A program made the position numbers and the translations under genes. Positions 1,091 to 10,684 of a stretch of 41,818 bases of DNA are shown piece after piece. How positions within the stretch are numbered: the first letter of the stretch is position 1; every line of letters starts with the position of its first letter. This stretch comes from Candidatus Gastranaerophilales bacterium (lineage in GTDB: Bacteria; Cyanobacteriota; Vampirovibrionia; Gastranaerophilales; Gastranaerophilaceae). Location: the NCBI GenBank assembly GCA_944325825.1, contig CALVBP010000015.1, positions 1 to 41,818 of the forward strand. The letters run 5' to 3'. The notes beneath the pieces were generated by a model that did not search any database, was not told the DNA's origin, and saw only the letters and a program-made list of their open reading frames with translations.

Positions 1091-2080
1091 ATGAAATGTA
1101 AAAAATTAACAAACGAACAAATAATTATTTCTTTAGACAGATTGACAAGGTTTAAAAAAACTCGAGATAAATATTTAAGAGTTTATACTGATATTATACT
1201 CTCAAGCCTTTATGAACCCGTAATAAGAAAGAATGATATTTTAAAAATGGGATATGATAAGATTACAGAGATTGTATCCGATATTTTTAATTATACACTT
1301 GGGGTTCCTGATGATTATGAAATTAACAAAAAACTGGAAGAGTACGAAAACAGTATTTTTATTAACGATAGTAAAACTAAGCTTTTATTAAAAAACAGAA
1401 TAAATTATAAAGCAGCTTTAGACATTCTGCCTCAAGATATTCCGATAAATTTAAGATGGCTAAAATCGTTACAAAATGATACAAATTTAAGACAAATCAG
1501 AGAGATTAATTTATTAAAATTCCCGGTAGAAAAAGTCATTTTGGTTGAAGGGATAACGGAAGAAATTTTATTACCCGCATTTGCAAGGTTTCTGGAACAT
1601 GATTTCTATGCAAAAGGCATACAGGTTATAGCAGCCGGTGGAAAAAACCAGGTTGTGAAAATGTATTATAAATTAGCAGAAGAACTAAAAATTCCGATAT
1701 TTGTGCTTCTGGACAAGGATGCGGAAGAAAATATCAGACAAATTGAACCAAAATTACGTAATGGCGATAAAATTCATTTAGTTTCCTGCGGCGAGTTTGA
1801 AGACTTGCTGTCAAAATCGTTAATAGTAAAGACAGTTAATTCACATTTTAGAAATTTTTTAAGTATAACAGAAGCGGATTTATTATCAAATATACCCACG
1901 GCAAGAATTCTGGAAGAGTTATTTAAGACTAAAGGTCTGCATGAGTTTAAGAAAGCTGAATTCGCAAAATTAGTTAGAGAGAATATAAACTCAATCAGTG
2001 ATATTTCAAATGAGATATCAGCAATCATAAATGAAATAGCGGGAGAAAACAAAACTCTTGACACTAAAATATGTTCCTGA
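1091..2080 (+). CDS. Stand-alone OLD-type TOPRIM domain protein
   Basis: A 329-residue protein. Residues 148-240 look like a TOPRIM fold of the OLD nuclease kind: VILVEGITEE gives the metal-binding Glu (E153, with E157), AAGG follows at about 181-184, then LLDKDAEE supplies the Asp pair (D208, D210), and GEFEDLL (about 234-240) matches the later acidic element. The first 145 residues are helical and charged and do not contain the Walker A/B or signature motifs of the ABC ATPase that OLD proteins normally carry. TOPRIM domains cut or join nucleic acid using divalent metal; the substrate here is unknown. The ATG has no obvious Shine-Dalgarno sequence, and a TATAAA lies only ten bases upstream. 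The gene ends 65 bases before tRNA-Lys. Alternatives are a primase-like or RNase M5-like TOPRIM, but the motif spacing suits OLD better. Confidence 0.65.
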   Translation: MKCKKLTNEQIIISLDRLTRFKKTRDKYLRVYTDIILSSLYEPVIRKNDILKMGYDKITEIVSDIFNYTLGVPDDYEINKKLEEYENSIFINDSKTKLLLKNRINYKAALDILPQDIPINLRWLKSLQNDTNLRQIREINLLKFPVEKVILVEGITEEILLPAFARFLEHDFYAKGIQVIAAGGKNQVVKMYYKLAEELKIPIFVLLDKDAEENIRQIEPKLRNGDKIHLVSCGEFEDLLSKSLIVKTVNSHFRNFLSITEADLLSNIPTARILEELFKTKGLHEFKKAEFAKLVRENINSISDISNEISAIINEIAGENKTLDTKICS

Positions 2081-2145
2081 TAACATATTTTTTGTGGTCG
2101 AAAGACTGAAATAGCCGAAGTATTTGCGGTAAATTGAATAAATAT

Positions 2146-2218
2146 GCGCTTGTAGCTCAGCAGGTAGAGCACTCCCCTTTTAAGGGATAGGTCGCGCGTT
2201 CGAATCGCGCCAAGCGCA
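2146..2218 (+). tRNA. tRNA-Lys (anticodon UUU)
   Basis: A 73-nt cloverleaf can be drawn: acceptor GCGCTTG/CAAGCGC, D stem GCTC/GAGC, anticodon stem CTCCC/GGGAT (first pair open) around loop CTTTTAA, variable AGGTC, T stem GCGCG/CGCGC around TTCGAAT, discriminator A. The anticodon TTT at 2179-2181 reads Lys codons AAA/AAG. CCA is not encoded. This tRNA is a classical carrier of mnm5(s2)U34, which is relevant to the MnmC2-like gene at 7112. Confidence 0.96.
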
Positions 2219-2282
2219 TATTTTTATGTCTGAAACTATAAATTGCTTCCGGTTTCCAAGCACATTAATTTTTTCTTTGTAA

Positions 2283-2288
2283 TATAAT
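2283..2288 (+). promoter_or_regulatory. Candidate -10 box of dxr
   Basis: A consensus TATAAT ends six bases before the dxr ATG, so transcription would start at or beside the start codon. No convincing -35 box is present at the normal distance, and no Shine-Dalgarno sequence precedes the ATG. The call rests on the -10 match alone. Confidence 0.35.
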
Positions 2289-2294
2289 ACTCCT

Positions 2295-3413
2295 ATGAAG
2301 AGAAAAATAAGCATACTAGGTTCGACAGGCTCTATAGGAAGACAGGCTCTTGAGGTTATTGAAAAACTTTCAGATAGCTTTGAAATAATTGCTCTTACTG
2401 CAGGGAATAATACTGCACTTTTAAATGAACAAATCCGTAAATTTAAGCCTAAATATGCATTTGCAAACAATATTAATGAAATAGAGGGTGCAAAACCTGC
2501 ATTGCTGGATGAAATTTGTGCAAATAAAGAAAATGACATAATATTAGTAGCTGTATCAGGTAAAGTTGGGTTAAAACCCACTATAACAGCTATTAATAAT
2601 GGTATTGATATAGCTCTGGCTAACAAAGAAACCCTTGTTATGGCCGGGGATATAGTGATGCCGCTTGCAAAGAAAAATAATGTTAATATAATTCCGGTAG
2701 ACAGTGAACATTGCGCAATTCATCAGTGTATTAAAGATATTTCTCAGGTGGATAAATTAATAATAACAGCTTCCGGCGGACCATTTTTGCACAAAAGTAT
2801 TGATGATATGAAAAATGCTACTGTTGAAGAGACTCTTCATCACCCGAGATGGAACATGGGCAAAAAAATTACGGTAGATAGTGCAACCCTTATGAACAAA
2901 GGTTTAGAAGTGATTGAAGCTCATCATTTGTTTAATATGAGTTATGATAAAATACAGGTCGTTGTTCATCCTCAAAGTATTGTACATTCGGCAATTGAAT
3001 ATATAGATGGAAGTGTAATCGCACAGCTCGGACTTCCGAGCATGCATATACCAATACAGTATGCAATTACGTATCCGGAACGTTTTGAAGGAATAAAATC
3101 AAAAACCTTTAGCTTCTCGGAAATAGCAAGACTCGATTTTGAAGAACCTGATTGGGAAAAATTCAAAGCTTTAAAAATTGCTTACTCTTGCGGCCGATAT
3201 GGCGGGTCTTTGCCTATCTGTATGAATGCTGCTAATGAAGAAGCTGTTTTTGCGTTCTTGCAAGGGAAAATTAAATTATTTGATATAATTGACACTGTAG
3301 TAAAAATGCTTGATGAGCATACTCCTGTCTATAACCTGACACTGGATGAAATTTTTGAAATTGACAAAGAAGTTAGAATGAAAACGAGAGAATCTTTTTT
3401 ACAGTATAAGTAG
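2295..3413 (+). CDS. dxr: 1-deoxy-D-xylulose-5-phosphate reductoisomerase
   Basis: DXR converts DXP to 2-C-methyl-D-erythritol 4-phosphate with NADPH, the committed step of the MEP isoprenoid pathway. The 372-residue protein starts with the NADPH-binding GSTGSIGRQ, has ALANKETLVMAG, and contains the metal/substrate loop PVDSEHCAIHQ, then ITASGGPF and HHPRWNMGKKITVDSATLMNKGLE, and the downstream NAANEEAV. It is slightly shorter than the usual 380-400 residues but has all the motifs I can check. The ATG has almost no leader. The YbaK-like gene follows after two bases, so the two are probably co-transcribed. The usual partner rseP is not next to it. Confidence 0.96.
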   Translation: MKRKISILGSTGSIGRQALEVIEKLSDSFEIIALTAGNNTALLNEQIRKFKPKYAFANNINEIEGAKPALLDEICANKENDIILVAVSGKVGLKPTITAINNGIDIALANKETLVMAGDIVMPLAKKNNVNIIPVDSEHCAIHQCIKDISQVDKLIITASGGPFLHKSIDDMKNATVEETLHHPRWNMGKKITVDSATLMNKGLEVIEAHHLFNMSYDKIQVVVHPQSIVHSAIEYIDGSVIAQLGLPSMHIPIQYAITYPERFEGIKSKTFSFSEIARLDFEEPDWEKFKALKIAYSCGRYGGSLPICMNAANEEAVFAFLQGKIKLFDIIDTVVKMLDEHTPVYNLTLDEIFEIDKEVRMKTRESFLQYK

Positions 3414-3415
3414 TT

Positions 3416-3877
3416 ATGAGTATTGAAAAAGTAAAAAAATATTTTAATAAGTATAATATGGAAGATAAGGTTCTGGAATTTAAGGTTTCCAGTGCAACTG
3501 TTGAATTGGCAGCACAAGCTCTAAATGTTGAACCGGCAAGAATAGCTAAAACACTTTCTTTTAAACAGGGTGATGACTGTGTGCTAATAGTTTGTGCCGG
3601 TGATGTTCGTATTGATAATAAAAAATATAAATCTTATTTCCATACAAAAGCTCGTATGCTTTCTCCTGAAGAAGTTTTTGAAGCTACAGGACATATGATA
3701 GGAGGGGTCTGTCCCTTTGGAATTGATGATAGTATTAAAGTTTACACAGATATCTCCTTAAAACGTTTTAACACAGTTTTCCCGGCATGTGGAAGCAGTA
3801 ACTCCGCTATTGAACTAAACTGTGATGAGTTGTTTAAATATTCGTCAAGTCTGGGCTGGGTTGATGTATGCAGTTAG
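3416..3877 (+). CDS. YbaK/EbsC-family aminoacyl-tRNA deacylase
   Basis: This 153-residue single-domain protein matches the YbaK/EbsC/ProX fold that hydrolyses mischarged tRNAs in trans, most often Ala- or Cys-tRNA(Pro). Visible family features are SSATVELAAQALNVEPARIAKTLSF near the N-terminus (residues 25-49), DVRIDNKKYK with the conserved lysine, the MLSPEEVFEATGHMIGGVCPFG block (about 82-103), and a late SSNSAIELNCDEL. The ATG lies two bases after the dxr stop with no clear Shine-Dalgarno sequence, so translation is probably coupled. The 3' end overlaps the convergent bioF by 4 bases. Which misacylated tRNA it edits cannot be told from the sequence. Confidence 0.88.
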   Translation: MSIEKVKKYFNKYNMEDKVLEFKVSSATVELAAQALNVEPARIAKTLSFKQGDDCVLIVCAGDVRIDNKKYKSYFHTKARMLSPEEVFEATGHMIGGVCPFGIDDSIKVYTDISLKRFNTVFPACGSSNSAIELNCDELFKYSSSLGWVDVCS

Positions 3878-5007
3878 GATTTTACGATTTCAAGTATTTT
3901 TTCAAAGTCTTCAATCCTTGAATCAGCAGTCAATGATATCCTTAGCCTGGAAGTTCCTTCTGGTACAGTCGGAGGTCTTATTGCCGGTATATAATAACCT
4001 TGTGATTTTAGGTTTTCAGAAACATTAAGCGTTTTTTCATTATTCCCTATTATAATCGGTATAATTTGAGATTCTGAAACCGTCTCAAATCCATTTAGGT
4101 TTATAAGTTTATGAGCTTTTTGTGTAACATTTTCAAGAATATCTTTTTGTGATTTTAAATACTCAATTTTCTCTGTAAGAAGCCAGTTTGTCCAGGCAAT
4201 GTTAATAGGGGGAATAGATGTGGAAAAGATAAATGACCTTGCTTTATTTATTAAATAATCAATAATATCAGCAGTAGATACGCAAAATGCACCGAAGGAG
4301 CCGACGGCTTTGCCAAAAGTAGCAGTTATTATATCAATATCTTTACCGCAGCCGATTCCAGATAGAGTTTTCCCGCAAGCACAAAAAGCATGTGCTTCAT
4401 CCACCATCAACAGACAATTATATTTATTTTTTAATTCAATCAGCTTATCTAGATTAGCAATATCACCATCCATACTGAATACAGATTCTGTTACAATTAG
4501 TGCTTTATTATAATTACTGCGTTTTGTTTGAAGAATTTTCTCGAGTTGATTGTAATCAAAATGTTTGAACCTGATAAATTCTCCCTCTGCAAGTCTCATA
4601 CCATCAATTATACTTGCATGATTCAATTTATCAGAAAATACAACATCTCCTTTATTTATAAGGGCAGAAATAACACCCAGATTGCATTGATATCCCGTAT
4701 TAAATATCAAAGCCTTATCTTTGTTAAATATTCCGGCTAAAGTTGATTCTAGCTCTTTGAATTCAATTGAAGTTCCGCTTAATAACCTTGCTGAAGCTGA
4801 AGAAAAAAGCTTGTTGCTGCCGGTTTTATAAAAGTCCTTTAAAAGTTCGGTTTTAGTACTTATACCTAAATAGTCATTTGATGCGAAATTTATGTATTCC
4901 TTTCCATCAATAATTACTTTACAATCTCTTTTATATTCAATATCCGGAATTTGTCTGAATTGTCCGTTTTCTTTTAATGTTATTAAATCTTCTTCAAGGC
5001 TTCTCAA
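3874..5007 (-). CDS. bioF: 8-amino-7-oxononanoate synthase (alpha-oxoamine synthase)
   Basis: A PLP enzyme joining pimeloyl-thioester and L-alanine in biotin synthesis. The 377-residue protein shows the family landmarks: FASNDYLGI near the start, SARLLSGTS, SDKLNHASIIDGMRLA, the PLP-stacking MVDEAHAFCACG and the Schiff-base lysine in ATFGKAVGSFGAF. The TFGKAxGSFGAF form favours BioF over threonine-linked Kbl, but other alpha-oxoamine synthases remain possible. The start is TTG at 5007: GGAG sits five bases upstream and the N-terminus aligns with family members. It begins three bases beyond the ctpA stop, so the two form an operon. No other biotin gene is in the window. Confidence 0.88.
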   Translation of the reverse strand: MRSLEEDLITLKENGQFRQIPDIEYKRDCKVIIDGKEYINFASNDYLGISTKTELLKDFYKTGSNKLFSSASARLLSGTSIEFKELESTLAGIFNKDKALIFNTGYQCNLGVISALINKGDVVFSDKLNHASIIDGMRLAEGEFIRFKHFDYNQLEKILQTKRSNYNKALIVTESVFSMDGDIANLDKLIELKNKYNCLLMVDEAHAFCACGKTLSGIGCGKDIDIITATFGKAVGSFGAFCVSTADIIDYLINKARSFIFSTSIPPINIAWTNWLLTEKIEYLKSQKDILENVTQKAHKLINLNGFETVSESQIIPIIIGNNEKTLNVSENLKSQGYYIPAIRPPTVPEGTSRLRISLTADSRIEDFEKILEIVKS

Positions 5008-5009
5008 AG

Positions 5010-6242
5010 TTACTCCATTTCCTTTAATATGGCTTTTGCTTTTTCAAGCTGAATATCATTTTTATTGCTATTCAGGTTAAAATCGAACTCATTTCCTACT
5101 TCAACATCAGGTTTTATTCCAAGCTTATTTATATCAGTACCGTTTGGAGTTAAATATCTTGCGATAGTTACATTTAGTCCTGTCCTGTTCGGCAACGGTA
5201 CAACTTTTTGTACCAGACCTTTCCCAAAGGTTTTTCTTCCGACAAGAGTTGCTTTATGATAATCTTTTAAAGCTCCGGATAGAATTTCGCTTGCGCTTGC
5301 GCTCGCTCCATTCACAAGAACTACGAGAGGCTTTGTCAGAATTGGCTGTACAGTATTTGCCTGAATAGATTTTTTGTATCCATTACGGTATATAATTTCT
5401 ACAATTTCACCCTGAGGTATAAACATATTTGCTATAAATACAGCATTATCAAGTAACCCGCCGGTATTGCCTCTTAAGTCTATAATCATTGAATCAGTAT
5501 TTTTTGTGTTTTCAAGAGCCTCGACAAATTCACTGGGAGTTGTTCCCCCCATAAAGCTTACTATTTGAATATAGCCGATATGGTTATCAATAACGGAGCT
5601 TTTAACATTTTTAATCTTGATTTCTTTTCGTTTTATTTTTTTTGTAACTTTTTTACCGTTTCTTATTAATGTGAGTTCAACAACGCTGTTTTCCGGCCCC
5701 CTGACAAGAGCTGCCACATCAGAAATATTCATTCCGTTTGTATCTTTTCCATCCACAGCAGAGATGATATCTCCTTGCTTAATTTGAGCAAAATCCGCAG
5801 GAGTTGAAGGGATAACATTAAAAACTTCAATTTTGCCTGAATTTGAATATATATTTACTCCGATTCCAAAAATTTTTGAAGTTATTGAGGTCGTGAGATC
5901 CTCATAATCCTTTTTATTCATAAATCGTGTATATGGCTCATTCAAACTGGCTATCATTGTGTCTATAGCAACTTTAGCATCATCATCTGTTTTGAGTTTA
6001 CCATTGTATCTGGTCTTCCAACGATACCAATCCTGATGATTTAATGTTGGCTCATAATATTCTCTATATAAAACTTTCCAGGTTTTATCAAAAAGTTTTT
6101 GCGGTTGAACTTCTTCATTATTATAAATAGCCTGGTCCGAAAAAAAAGTGTTAGCTTTGGTAAAGGCTGTCATAAAGACTTTATTAAAAATTACCAAAAT
6201 TAATACTAACAATAACGGTATTATTAAGTGCTTCGTCTTCAT
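5010..6242 (-). CDS. ctpA: S41 C-terminal processing peptidase (CtpA/Prc type)
   Basis: A membrane-anchored or periplasmic serine protease that trims proteins from the C-terminus. The N-terminus MKTKHLIIPLLLVLILVIF is a membrane segment or signal peptide. A PDZ domain follows (about residues 115-195; SKIFGIGVNIYS to PENSVVELTLIR), then the S41 domain with DLRGNTGGLLD, the nucleophile region VNGASASASEIL and the catalytic-lysine region GRKTFGKGLVQ. I chose the ATG at 6242 (410 aa). A TTG 18 bases upstream extends the frame but has no ribosome binding site. The gene runs directly into bioF. In oxygenic cyanobacteria CtpA matures the D1 protein; that substrate is not expected here, so a general envelope role is more likely. 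Confidence 0.9.
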   Translation of the reverse strand: MKTKHLIIPLLLVLILVIFNKVFMTAFTKANTFFSDQAIYNNEEVQPQKLFDKTWKVLYREYYEPTLNHQDWYRWKTRYNGKLKTDDDAKVAIDTMIASLNEPYTRFMNKKDYEDLTTSITSKIFGIGVNIYSNSGKIEVFNVIPSTPADFAQIKQGDIISAVDGKDTNGMNISDVAALVRGPENSVVELTLIRNGKKVTKKIKRKEIKIKNVKSSVIDNHIGYIQIVSFMGGTTPSEFVEALENTKNTDSMIIDLRGNTGGLLDNAVFIANMFIPQGEIVEIIYRNGYKKSIQANTVQPILTKPLVVLVNGASASASEILSGALKDYHKATLVGRKTFGKGLVQKVVPLPNRTGLNVTIARYLTPNGTDINKLGIKPDVEVGNEFDFNLNSNKNDIQLEKAKAILKEME

Positions 6243-7111: not shown

Positions 7112-8539
7112 ATGAGGGATTATGAGTTTTATTATACCCAAGATGGCTCAATAGGGCTGTATTCATATGAAGACCATGATGTCTACCATTCAAAATTCGG
7201 AGCCCTGACAGAGGCCTGGGAAAAGTTTGTTATGCCTTCCGGTATAGAAAAGAAGCTCAATACGGTTGATAACATCAGAGTATTAGATGTATGTTACGGA
7301 ATCGGATATAATACAAAAGCTTTAATCAGTTATGTAATTAATACTGATGAAAAACTTTTAAAAAAAGAAAAAAATTTTAAATTAAAAATAAAAAATATTA
7401 TAAAAAAATATTTTCCCATATTGATTAATATCGTTTCGATAGATGACAATAATATGAATATTAAAGATGAGAGGTTATCAAACCCTAACGAAACGAGATA
7501 TAGTAAGATTTATGTAGATTGTTTGGAAATAGATAAAACTCTTGTAAAAATTTCACCATTACTAAAAACGATTATAACTCCCCAGGAAATTTATACTAAA
7601 ATTGTTCCGAAAATTTTTGACTGCTTTAGCTTATACTGGAAGATTAAAAAATTTATAGGTAAATGTTTTAAATTTCTGGCTCCAAAAAATAAAAAAGAAA
7701 TAAGAGAACTTTTAGATTTAAGGTTTAATAATGATTATGATGAAATTGAGAACGAATATAGAATCAATTCATTGACTAATTACATAATAATAGATTCATT
7801 AATAAATCATTATAAGAATAATTATTTTGATGATGACCTAAAAAAAATTGTAAAGGACAGAAAGTTTCGTAAATATTTTGCACCTTATTTGATAAAATAT
7901 GCTAAATTTAAGCAAGATTTTAGGTATAATTTTATAGCCAGATTTAATTTAGCCTCCTTCTTACATAATATATATTATGACCATTTATCGAAACGGTATA
8001 ATAAGATTAAATCTAAGGACATTGAAGGACTGTTTAAGCTTAATTTCTTTATAAACGATGCAAGAAAGTCTATTCTAGAGTTAAATGGCGAATATGACTA
8101 CATATACCTGGATGCTTTTACGTTTACAAAAGCACCTCAATTGTGGTCTGTAGAATTTATTGCAGAATTATACCGTCATCTTTCGCCGACAGGACTAATT
8201 ATGACTTATTCTAATTCTGCACTTGTACGAAATACCTTTATAGAAAACAATTTCTATGTAGGAAAAATATGCGATAAGAAAACCGGTAAATTTATAGGCA
8301 CAGTTGCCTCTAAAGAAAAATCAATGATTGAATTTCCTCTGTCAAACTACGAACTCGGTTTGTGTTCAACGAAAGCAGGAATCCCATATCATGATGAAAC
8401 TTTAAGTAGCACCAAAGAGGCTATATTAAAAAGACGAGAGATAGAATTTAAAACAAGTGATTTAATGTCCTCTTCAAAATATTTGAAATACAGAAGAGAT
8501 AAGCTGCTGGAAGGATTAGACGATGAAGAACAGATATGA
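7112..8539 (+). CDS. MnmC2-like (DUF752) SAM-dependent tRNA methyltransferase
   Basis: A 475-residue protein of the family that methylates nm5U to mnm5U at tRNA position 34. Family signs: YHSKFGALTEAWEKFV near residue 26; the SAM loop VLDVCYGIGYNTKAL (about 58-72); VDCLEID (about 136-142); FFINDARKSILEL and YIYLDAFTFTKAPQLWS (about 310-350); TYSNSALVRNTF; and a C-terminal GIPYHDETLSS..EAILKRRE. Stand-alone members are commonly near 300 residues; here about 160 extra, Lys/Asn-rich residues lie between the SAM loop and the DAR motif. One small part of the extra sequence (residues 122-130) is encoded by a repeat also found in the next gene. The 3' end overlaps that gene by 17 bases in another frame. 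The promoter is candidate leaderless. Confidence 0.8.
   Translation: MRDYEFYYTQDGSIGLYSYEDHDVYHSKFGALTEAWEKFVMPSGIEKKLNTVDNIRVLDVCYGIGYNTKALISYVINTDEKLLKKEKNFKLKIKNIIKKYFPILINIVSIDDNNMNIKDERLSNPNETRYSKIYVDCLEIDKTLVKISPLLKTIITPQEIYTKIVPKIFDCFSLYWKIKKFIGKCFKFLAPKNKKEIRELLDLRFNNDYDEIENEYRINSLTNYIIIDSLINHYKNNYFDDDLKKIVKDRKFRKYFAPYLIKYAKFKQDFRYNFIARFNLASFLHNIYYDHLSKRYNKIKSKDIEGLFKLNFFINDARKSILELNGEYDYIYLDAFTFTKAPQLWSVEFIAELYRHLSPTGLIMTYSNSALVRNTFIENNFYVGKICDKKTGKFIGTVASKEKSMIEFPLSNYELGLCSTKAGIPYHDETLSSTKEAILKRREIEFKTSDLMSSSKYLKYRRDKLLEGLDDEEQI
7429..7500 (+). repeat. In-frame palindromic repeat, copy 1
   Basis: The 3' arm (7475-7500) matches 8955-8980 at 25 of 26 bases (only 7488 differs from 8968) and encodes LSNPNETRY. 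The 5' arm contains TCGTTTCGATAG (7431-7442), the exact reverse complement of CTATCGAAACGA in copy 2 and one base off its own 3' arm, so copy 1 forms an interrupted inverted repeat. It sits where family members normally have a short link between the SAM loop and the EID motif. Confidence 0.7.
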
Positions 8540-9782
8540 TTTAATAATCGCAGGTGGAGGTACGGCAGGTGTTAGCTGCGCTTATATTGCCGCAAAGTTA
8601 GGCCTTGAAGTTTTAATAATAGAAAAAAATTCTTATTTAGGCGGAACAATAACATCTTCTCTTGTTGTTCCGGCAATGAAAACATCTGATAATGCCATTA
8701 ATACCGATTTTTTTAATGAGTTATATAAAAATTTAGAGCAAATAAATGGTGCTATAACCTACTGTGACGGTAATAAAGGTTGGTTTAATCCGGAATTAAC
8801 AAAAATTGCTCTTGATAAAATGATGACAGAGGCAGGGGTAGAGGTTCTATTTGAATCTTTTATTAATAATATTTATACAAATAACACAAAAGTGTTATCA
8901 ATATCTATCGATACGATAAGTAGTCATAACAATTTGTTGTATAACAACATAATATTATCAAACCCTATCGAAACGAGATACTTAATAGATGCGACAGGTG
9001 ATGCAAAAATTTGTCAAAAATTAAATTGTGAATTTTTAAATAATAATTCTGAAACTCAGCCGACAAGTTTAAGATTTATAATGTCCGGAGTTAATGTTGA
9101 AGAATTTTCTTCTTGGATTATGGAGCTTGATAAAGATAGAGATGTTACGACATCATGCAAAATTGACGGTAATACATACTGTTCTACGGCATATACCTGG
9201 GATAGTACAAAATGGGCGCTAAAGCCTATTGTTGAGCAAGCTATATCGGACAATGTTGTCGAGGCTGCTGATTTGAACTATTTTCAGCTATTTTCAGTCG
9301 CCGGAACTCAAGACTCCATTGCGTTTAATGCTCCCAGATTATTGGCGAACGATGGCTATATTCTAGCCAGGGAGCGAGTTTTGAGATTATCCCGATTTTG
9401 TAACAAATATTTAAAAGGCTTCGAAAAAGCCTATATATCTTCAATAGCAAACTCAATCGGGGTAAGGGTTTCGAACAGAGTTAAAGGAAAGTATGTTTAT
9501 AAAATAGAAGACCTGTTAACTTCAAAAGTATTTGATAATCCGGTAGTTATATCAAACTATCCTGTTGACATTCACTCAAAAGAAAAAGATTCTTCTACTT
9601 TGCAGAAAGTTTACAAAGAATATCAACTCCCATTGGAATCCTTACAGGCTGAAGGTTTTGATAATCTATATGTTATTGGTAGATGTATTTCAGCTGACTT
9701 TAAATCACAAGCTGCCTTAAGGATTATACCATCATGTTTTTCGATGGGAGAAGGGTTAGCTAAATATTTAGCTAAAAAATAA
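8523..9782 (+). CDS. FAD-dependent oxidoreductase (PF12831-like)
   Basis: A 419-residue flavoprotein. The N-terminus YDLIIAGGGTAGVSCAYIAAKLG is the Rossmann dinucleotide-binding GxGxxG motif, followed by LIIEKNSYLGGTITSS; VLFESFINNIY and LIDATGDAKI are the usual second FAD-contact segments; the C-terminus VIGRCISADFKSQAALRIIPSCFSMGEG is typical of the FAD_oxidored family. The substrate is unknown. The ATG at 8523 has AAGGA eight bases upstream and lies inside the methyltransferase gene, so the two are translationally coupled. This order (methyltransferase, then FAD enzyme) is that of the two domains of E. coli MnmC, but the FAD fold looks like a different family from the DAO-type oxidase of MnmC. 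Residues 145-153 (LSNPIETRY) come from the shared repeat. Confidence 0.85.
   Translation: MKNRYDLIIAGGGTAGVSCAYIAAKLGLEVLIIEKNSYLGGTITSSLVVPAMKTSDNAINTDFFNELYKNLEQINGAITYCDGNKGWFNPELTKIALDKMMTEAGVEVLFESFINNIYTNNTKVLSISIDTISSHNNLLYNNIILSNPIETRYLIDATGDAKICQKLNCEFLNNNSETQPTSLRFIMSGVNVEEFSSWIMELDKDRDVTTSCKIDGNTYCSTAYTWDSTKWALKPIVEQAISDNVVEAADLNYFQLFSVAGTQDSIAFNAPRLLANDGYILARERVLRLSRFCNKYLKGFEKAYISSIANSIGVRVSNRVKGKYVYKIEDLLTSKVFDNPVVISNYPVDIHSKEKDSSTLQKVYKEYQLPLESLQAEGFDNLYVIGRCISADFKSQAALRIIPSCFSMGEGLAKYLAKK
8895..8980 (+). repeat. In-frame palindromic repeat, copy 2
   Basis: The 3' arm at 8955-8980 is the 25/26 match to copy 1, read in the same frame as LSNPIETRY. The 5' side is degraded: it has CTATCGATACGA near 8900, one base from the arm sequence but in direct orientation, and a short palindrome GTTGTATAACAAC. 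In the protein it widens the loop just before the LIDATGD motif, a surface loop in this family. Confidence 0.65.
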
Positions 9783-9799
9783 TGTACGAACTCGCATTT

Positions 9800-10684
9800 T
9801 TATCCTTCAAAGTTGTTGGTTATTGTATGGATATATTCTAATATTTGACTGAAATAAAGAAGATTAGAATCTCCGTTCAGGATAATATCAGCTTCTTCTC
9901 TAGCCGGTTTTACATATTTTTCTCCGGCAACAAGGATATAATCCCAATGCTTTTTAGCGTTTTCTAAATCTTGATTTCTTTCAGTGTAGGCTCTTGTCAT
10001 AAAGCGGTCTCTTCTGATATCCAGATCCGTTTCAACATAAACTTTAATATCAAATATATCTTTTAAATCCTTATACATAGAAGCCATACCTTCAACAATT
10101 ACAACTTTATTTGAAGGTACAAATTTGGAGTGAGGTATAGATACTCCTGTTCCGTTTGGAAGATATTCCGGTGAATAAACATCTTCTCCTTGAGAGATTT
10201 TATTTAAGTCCTCTCTAAGTATATCTAATTGAAAGCTCTCAGGAGAATCCACATCATAGCCATTATCTCTGAGAGCATCAAAACTTCCGTAAACTTTAAT
10301 TAATTCTGAAATATCGTTAAAATAATTATCGGTTGTCAGAATTGTTACAGGCATACTAAAACGCTTTATAACATTTGAAATTTCTTTGCAGATAGTTGAT
10401 TTGCCTGATGCAGATTCTCCTGTAATCCCAATCATAATTCTTTTTGAGGGATTGGAAATTAACCTTCTTGAAAATTTTTGTATGAAATCATATTTTACAT
10501 CTATAAATATAGGTTCTTCTACTTTACTATCATAGGCTAGAACTTGTTTAAATTTTGATTGAAGGTAAAACGCAAGTAATTCACGTCCTGTTTTCTGGGT
10601 AAAATCAGGCTTCAAAATTTTATCTGTAGCATTGAGTTCTTTTTCTATTAAATGGTAGATACCATTTTTTTCATCTTCAAACAT
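9800..10684 (-). CDS. Uridine kinase/phosphoribulokinase-family P-loop kinase
   Basis: A 294-residue protein. After an 80-residue N-terminal extension of unknown role comes IMIGITGESASGKST (Walker A, residues 89-96), LTTDNYFNDISEL (the DxxY/F acceptor-binding loop of uridine kinases), FDALRDNGYDVDSPESFQ, VVIVEGMASMY (Walker B-like) and a lid-type segment RRDRFMTRAYTERNQD. This fits the PRK/URK superfamily, with uridine/cytidine phosphorylation as the most likely reaction. The extension and the unusual lid make the substrate uncertain. The ATG follows GGAAGT by eight bases. It is the last gene of a long minus-strand run and ends tail-to-tail, 17 bases from the FAD gene; I see no terminator there. 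Confidence 0.75.
   Translation of the reverse strand: MFEDEKNGIYHLIEKELNATDKILKPDFTQKTGRELLAFYLQSKFKQVLAYDSKVEEPIFIDVKYDFIQKFSRRLISNPSKRIMIGITGESASGKSTICKEISNVIKRFSMPVTILTTDNYFNDISELIKVYGSFDALRDNGYDVDSPESFQLDILREDLNKISQGEDVYSPEYLPNGTGVSIPHSKFVPSNKVVIVEGMASMYKDLKDIFDIKVYVETDLDIRRDRFMTRAYTERNQDLENAKKHWDYILVAGEKYVKPAREEADIILNGDSNLLYFSQILEYIHTITNNFEG

Follow-up and report, generated by a model that had tools for sequence, protein, structure and literature searches.

In most bacteria, the task of pairing sister dif sites falls to the FtsK translocase. Rickettsia palindromic elements are palindromic DNA carried in frame within the loops of protein genes. Predicted dif sites are non-coding in 93.92% of cases, and prediction yielded no dif for any of the Cyanobacteria tested (PMC3025954). 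Archaeal dif/Xer systems are independent of FtsK, and recombination at the plasmid sites cer and psi uses accessory proteins (PMC5357621). The matS site is a 13-bp sequence with 23 copies over 800 kb (PMC3330122).

We analyzed a locus of a Candidatus Gastranaerophilales bacterium (contig CALVBP010000015.1, assembly GCA_944325825.1); the window, meaning the whole stretch of DNA analyzed, spans 41,818 nt. The locus shares with XerCD/dif systems a 28-bp dif of two 11-bp arms around a 6-bp centre, a place near the skew switch, a pair of Xer recombinases and, in a relative from another family, use by a microvirus for integration. It differs in that dif lies within a protein gene, palindromic sites flank it, and no FtsK was found. 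The features are as follows.

7112..8539, plus strand: gene a, an MnmC2-like SAM methyltransferase of 475 aa, which holds dif and palindromic sites 1-3.
7346..7504 (bounds approximate), plus strand: family-specific loop inserted in gene a, which holds sites 1 and 2 and is absent from orthologues of the order's other families.
7418..7452, no strand: palindromic site 1, core 7429-7441 (TATCGTTTCGATA), score 31.0, conserved in the genus.
7475..7509, no strand: palindromic site 2, core 7486-7498, containing the first copy of a 26-bp repeat, score 22.7, conserved in the genus.
7958..7985, plus strand: dif, inside gene a, from the dif-consensus scan.
7958-7968: XerD-type arm of dif, TTCTTACATAA, named by resemblance.
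7969-7974: centre of dif, TATATA.
7975-7985: XerC-type arm of dif, TTATGACCATT, named by resemblance.
7975..8009, no strand: palindromic site 3, made of the XerC arm of dif and the adjoining core 7986-7998, score 20.1, from the dif-flank alignment.
8523..9782, plus strand: gene b, a FAD-dependent oxidoreductase of 419 aa, which holds sites 4 and 5.
8895..8929, no strand: palindromic site 4, core 8906-8918, score 32.7, model E 2.4e-6.
8955..8989, no strand: palindromic site 5, core 8966-8978, containing the second copy of the 26-bp repeat, score 18.4, conserved in the genus.

Gene a matches Pfam PF05430 (1.6e-19) and NCBIfam MnmC2 (4.1e-23, under the NCBIfam cut-off), and gene b matches Pfam PF12831 (3.1e-70). 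Homologues of gene a are found throughout the order, and homologues of both genes are present in most of the genus. The palindrome-bearing insert of gene a and the longer loop of gene b have no counterpart, or a much shorter one, outside the family, the comparison for gene b being with family f7 only.

The dif site emerged from a scan with the general bacterial dif consensus and recurs in nearly all genus relatives. Across an alignment of 44 loci, the XerD arm and centre are nearly invariant and the XerC arm is variable. Of 52 family genomes sampled, 48 have the exact dif core, mostly as a single copy; none of 94 genomes sampled from other families of the class has it. The order's other families carry a dif-like site at the same gene a codon, encoding HNIYY. 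Gene-strand-separated GC skew switches at or close to the locus on long contigs of three genera (G061 at 804 kb, G108 at 413 kb and G068 at 136 kb, each placed within tens of kb since contigs were sampled in 20-kb pieces). Two contigs of the source genus, none of whose genomes is closed, show the same trend with more noise. The case for a canonical XerCD dif is strong, and the distribution is that of one site per chromosome at the terminus, with extra variant copies in a few family genomes. These extra dif-like copies lie outside gene a, have TCT or TTT in the centre, and occur at G061:C8:282143 and G072:C8:78923, on G062:C15 and G095:C3, and in G106 and G111. Our literature search turned up no earlier description of dif in this lineage; the site now gives a dif for a sister lineage of photosynthetic cyanobacteria.

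Around this dif lie five copies of a 35-bp motif with two-fold symmetry (consensus TTATYRNNANMTATCGWWWCGATAKNTNNYRATAA), all within the adjacent genes a and b. The initial annotation had caught pieces of them. Positions 7475-7500 and 8955-8980 are, as it claimed, identical at 25 of 26 bases and share one codon phase, in which they encode LSNP(N/I)ETRY, and TCGTTTCGATAG at 7431-7442 is indeed the exact reverse complement of CTATCGAAACGA within the second copy. Both copies lie in loops, again as described, and those loops are much shorter outside the family. What it took as arms within spans of 70-90 bp do not form one hairpin and are parts of five separate symmetric sites, and the dif site that the palindromes encircle had escaped it. 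With up to 3 mismatches allowed, the 26-bp sequence matches nowhere else in the window (0 hits in 100 shuffles) or in the 1.85-Mb genome. Repeat finding returned further related stretches at 7428-7455, 7972-8000 and 8895-8920.

Aligned proteins and DNA from genus relatives contain the same set of sites in both genes, site 3 often being weaker. We detected no covariation beyond independence between the two arms of a site. A symmetric protein-binding site therefore fits better than an RNA stem, and an RNA hairpin was rejected for this reason. Sites 1, 2, 4 and 5 share a codon phase, and site 3 is in a different one. The shared phase of the four is probably forced by stop codons in the other frames, because the consensus has a stop at its right end in one of them and reads TAG in the remaining one when K = G.

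Codon usage within the sites points to constraint on the DNA. One core codon is ACG, TCG or GCG in 95 of 97 sites, against a background of 7.2% of Ser/Thr/Ala codons ending in CG in 19 other genes of the window, and another is ATC in 71 of 72 isoleucine codons, against 11.6%; the sites were initially chosen by partial core match, which introduces some bias toward these bases, and conservation at fixed places in the two genes is independent of that choice. We rejected a protein-level motif: the encoded residues vary, the CG dinucleotides and rare codons stay constant, and the third site is read in another phase. A DNA function shapes codons and protein loops family-wide, with dif and its satellites both placed inside protein genes. 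A DnaA box has C at position 6. The TTATC arms of the palindromes have A or G there, and a DnaA-box reading was rejected.

Genome-wide occurrence was assessed by pattern and model searches. The sequence model matched 32 of 38 genus genomes, nearly always at this locus and seldom elsewhere; one of the 32, G010, is without gene a and gave a marginal match only (E 0.044). Exact cores (TATCGWWWCGATA) likewise occur almost exclusively here, and control matches are few. Beyond the genus, members of the family (Candidatus Gastranaerophilales) also have the sites in this gene pair, and distant orthologues lack them. The exception to this confinement is G017, which has 19 further dispersed exact cores, mostly TATCGAWTCGATA, far above chance. 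These extra cores (loci L172-L183) lie mostly within genes and in several codon phases. Clustering of them near the terminus was considered and rejected, as only one or two of the twelve loci map to relatives' terminus contigs.

The palindromes are tied to dif both by position and by sequence. With a matrix for other genera, palindromes were found at all 31 true family dif loci checked, mostly on both sides, a few loci having a palindrome on one side only within the stretch examined. Two ectopic dif-like copies (L319 and L331) have none. A scan of family loci returned 118 sites versus 1 control hit, with about 19 of these genomes outside the matrix training. Most sites fall between about -0.36 and -0.6 kb or between +0.55 and +2.2 kb from dif, with extremes at -0.7 and +2.7 kb, and they usually come two together. 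Genes a and b are 1-2 kb apart in several genera, and there the sites remain with dif and gene b, with extra sites in between.

Each palindrome is two inverted XerC-side dif half-sites, the 11-bp arm plus TATCG, separated by a 3-bp centre. This identity follows from where the half-site score peaks in families that have no palindromes. When a half-site matrix trained on genus palindromes only was applied to those families, the XerC arm of dif (for example TTATCGGTCTATATCG) outscored every other position of the locus in 10 of 16 genomes, although the 16 are related and the ten top ranks are not independent trials. Under the same scoring, most of the 16 give the XerD arm a rank in the hundreds to thousands. 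The half-site match of dif is weaker in f6, f7 and some f2, f3 and f4 genomes. As to the order of events, we infer that dif in gene a is old and that the palindromes were gained within this family.

We then considered the machinery that could act on such sites. Two strong XerC/XerD-type tyrosine recombinases are encoded in G000 (loci L288 and L296) and the relatives examined, scoring just below the XerC and XerD equivalog cut-offs and above the general Xer subfamily cut-off. Searches of draft genomes, many of them 99% complete, detected no FtsK gamma domain in any of 79 from the order and no FtsK ATPase in any of 18 from the family, with control genomes positive. Activation by FtsK gamma accordingly has no visible counterpart here.

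Putting these observations together, we lean, by a modest step beyond even confidence, toward palindromes that serve as accessory sites: inverted XerC half-sites that flank a terminus dif inside a methyltransferase gene, in a lineage with no detectable FtsK. The binding protein and the function are inferred. The presumed binder of the palindromes is XerC or a partner recognizing the XerC side of dif. Binding could mark the terminus, raise the local concentration of recombinase or help sister dif sites to pair, and such pairing or marking would happen where no FtsK is present. More tentatively, and at somewhat below even confidence, we propose an FtsK-free chromosomal Xer system in which arrays of inverted XerC half-sites in coding loops, flanking a coding-embedded dif, pair or mark sister termini. 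Such a system would point to chromosome dimer resolution without the FtsK pump. No dif accessory array of this kind turned up in the literature searched. The analogy would be with plasmid cer and psi, where protein-binding sequences beside the XerCD core control recombination without FtsK through ArgR, PepA and ArcA (PMC5357621). The sites here differ in being chromosomal, on both sides, 0.36-2.7 kb away and of another sequence.

Several observations weaken this Xer-accessory reading. The spacing is loose, at about 0.36-2.7 kb, unlike the tight accessory regions of cer and psi. The arms of the palindrome are oriented with TTAT outwards, unlike those of a recombination core. In f6, f7 and part of the f3/f4 genomes, dif matches the half-site weakly, and the 19 dispersed cores of G017 fall outside the scope of the reading. 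Moreover, the palindromes are not a simple replacement for FtsK, because the order's other families lack FtsK gamma and lack palindromes as well.

The main rival, to which we give clearly less credence, holds that a terminus-organizing protein, like MatP on matS or like ZapT, binds the palindromes and tethers or condenses the dif region outside Xer recombination. The position at the terminus fits, as do sites on both sides of dif at loose and variable distances; the symmetry of the arms, with no covariation, points to a DNA-binding protein acting as a dimer, and G017 has the core alone at 19 other places. Like matS, these are short symmetric sites in the terminus region. They depart from matS in being 35 bp long, of another sequence and within about 3 kb around dif, and restriction to one locus of that size counts against an organizer. 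By itself, a terminus organizer also fails to account for the identity of the half-site with the XerC side of dif where families lack palindromes, and no candidate protein came to light, short of a systematic search.

Operators of a transcription regulator for genes a and b are an improbable alternative. The sites do look like symmetric operators within one two-gene unit, but they sit deep in coding regions, about 300 to 1,850 bp past the start codon, and in the several genera where the two genes lie 1-2 kb apart they keep with dif and gene b and appear in the space between. Ter-like replication fork barriers would suit the terminus position and are slightly less probable again, known fork traps being polar and these sites symmetric.

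Least probable of all, and largely refuted, is the mobile palindromic element of Rickettsia type that the initial annotation proposed to have inserted in frame: the same two genes hold the sites family-wide by vertical inheritance, in 37 of the 38 genus genomes searched the motif is missing or occurs almost exclusively at the locus, the sites are separate 35-bp units and not one long hairpin, and one of them forms part of dif. What stands of that proposal is a single palindromic DNA motif, carried in frame within loops of two unrelated proteins, constrained as DNA and missing from distant orthologues; in this the locus resembles Rickettsia palindromic elements. What falls is mobility. Rickettsia elements have many dispersed copies at species-variable positions, and here orthologous positions are kept across genera, with G017 the sole genome whose dispersed cores favor such an element. 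The two findings named in advance as telling against it, orthologues with the same segment and a lack of further copies, are largely what we observe, at the level of the family and not of more distant taxa.

Phages bring further evidence on the dif site. In G055, which belongs to a different family within the order, about 4.6 kb lying between two dif copies interrupts gene a at the dif place, and the insert encodes the replication initiator, DNA pilot protein and major capsid protein of a microvirus. The G055 microvirus occupies positions 1604-6160 of locus L339 (G055:C27:5500-13500). This insertion, in a relative from another family, is strong evidence that dif undergoes recombination in nature. 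A second microvirus integration is probably present in G104 (L355, G104:C8:12500-18500), where a microvirus-type capsid gene stands next to a gene a that is cut at the dif position (residue 282). The 5.4-kb viral contig L357 (IMGVR_UViG_2974617054_000001), which has microvirus-like genes, carries the XerD arm and centre of the family's dif at about 1173-1193, likely a phage attachment site. Viral carriage of the palindromes was considered and set aside; the matches are single ones on three unrelated phage contigs. One strong match (score 29) is at 10119 of phage contig L360 (IMGVR_UViG_3300031993_000650).
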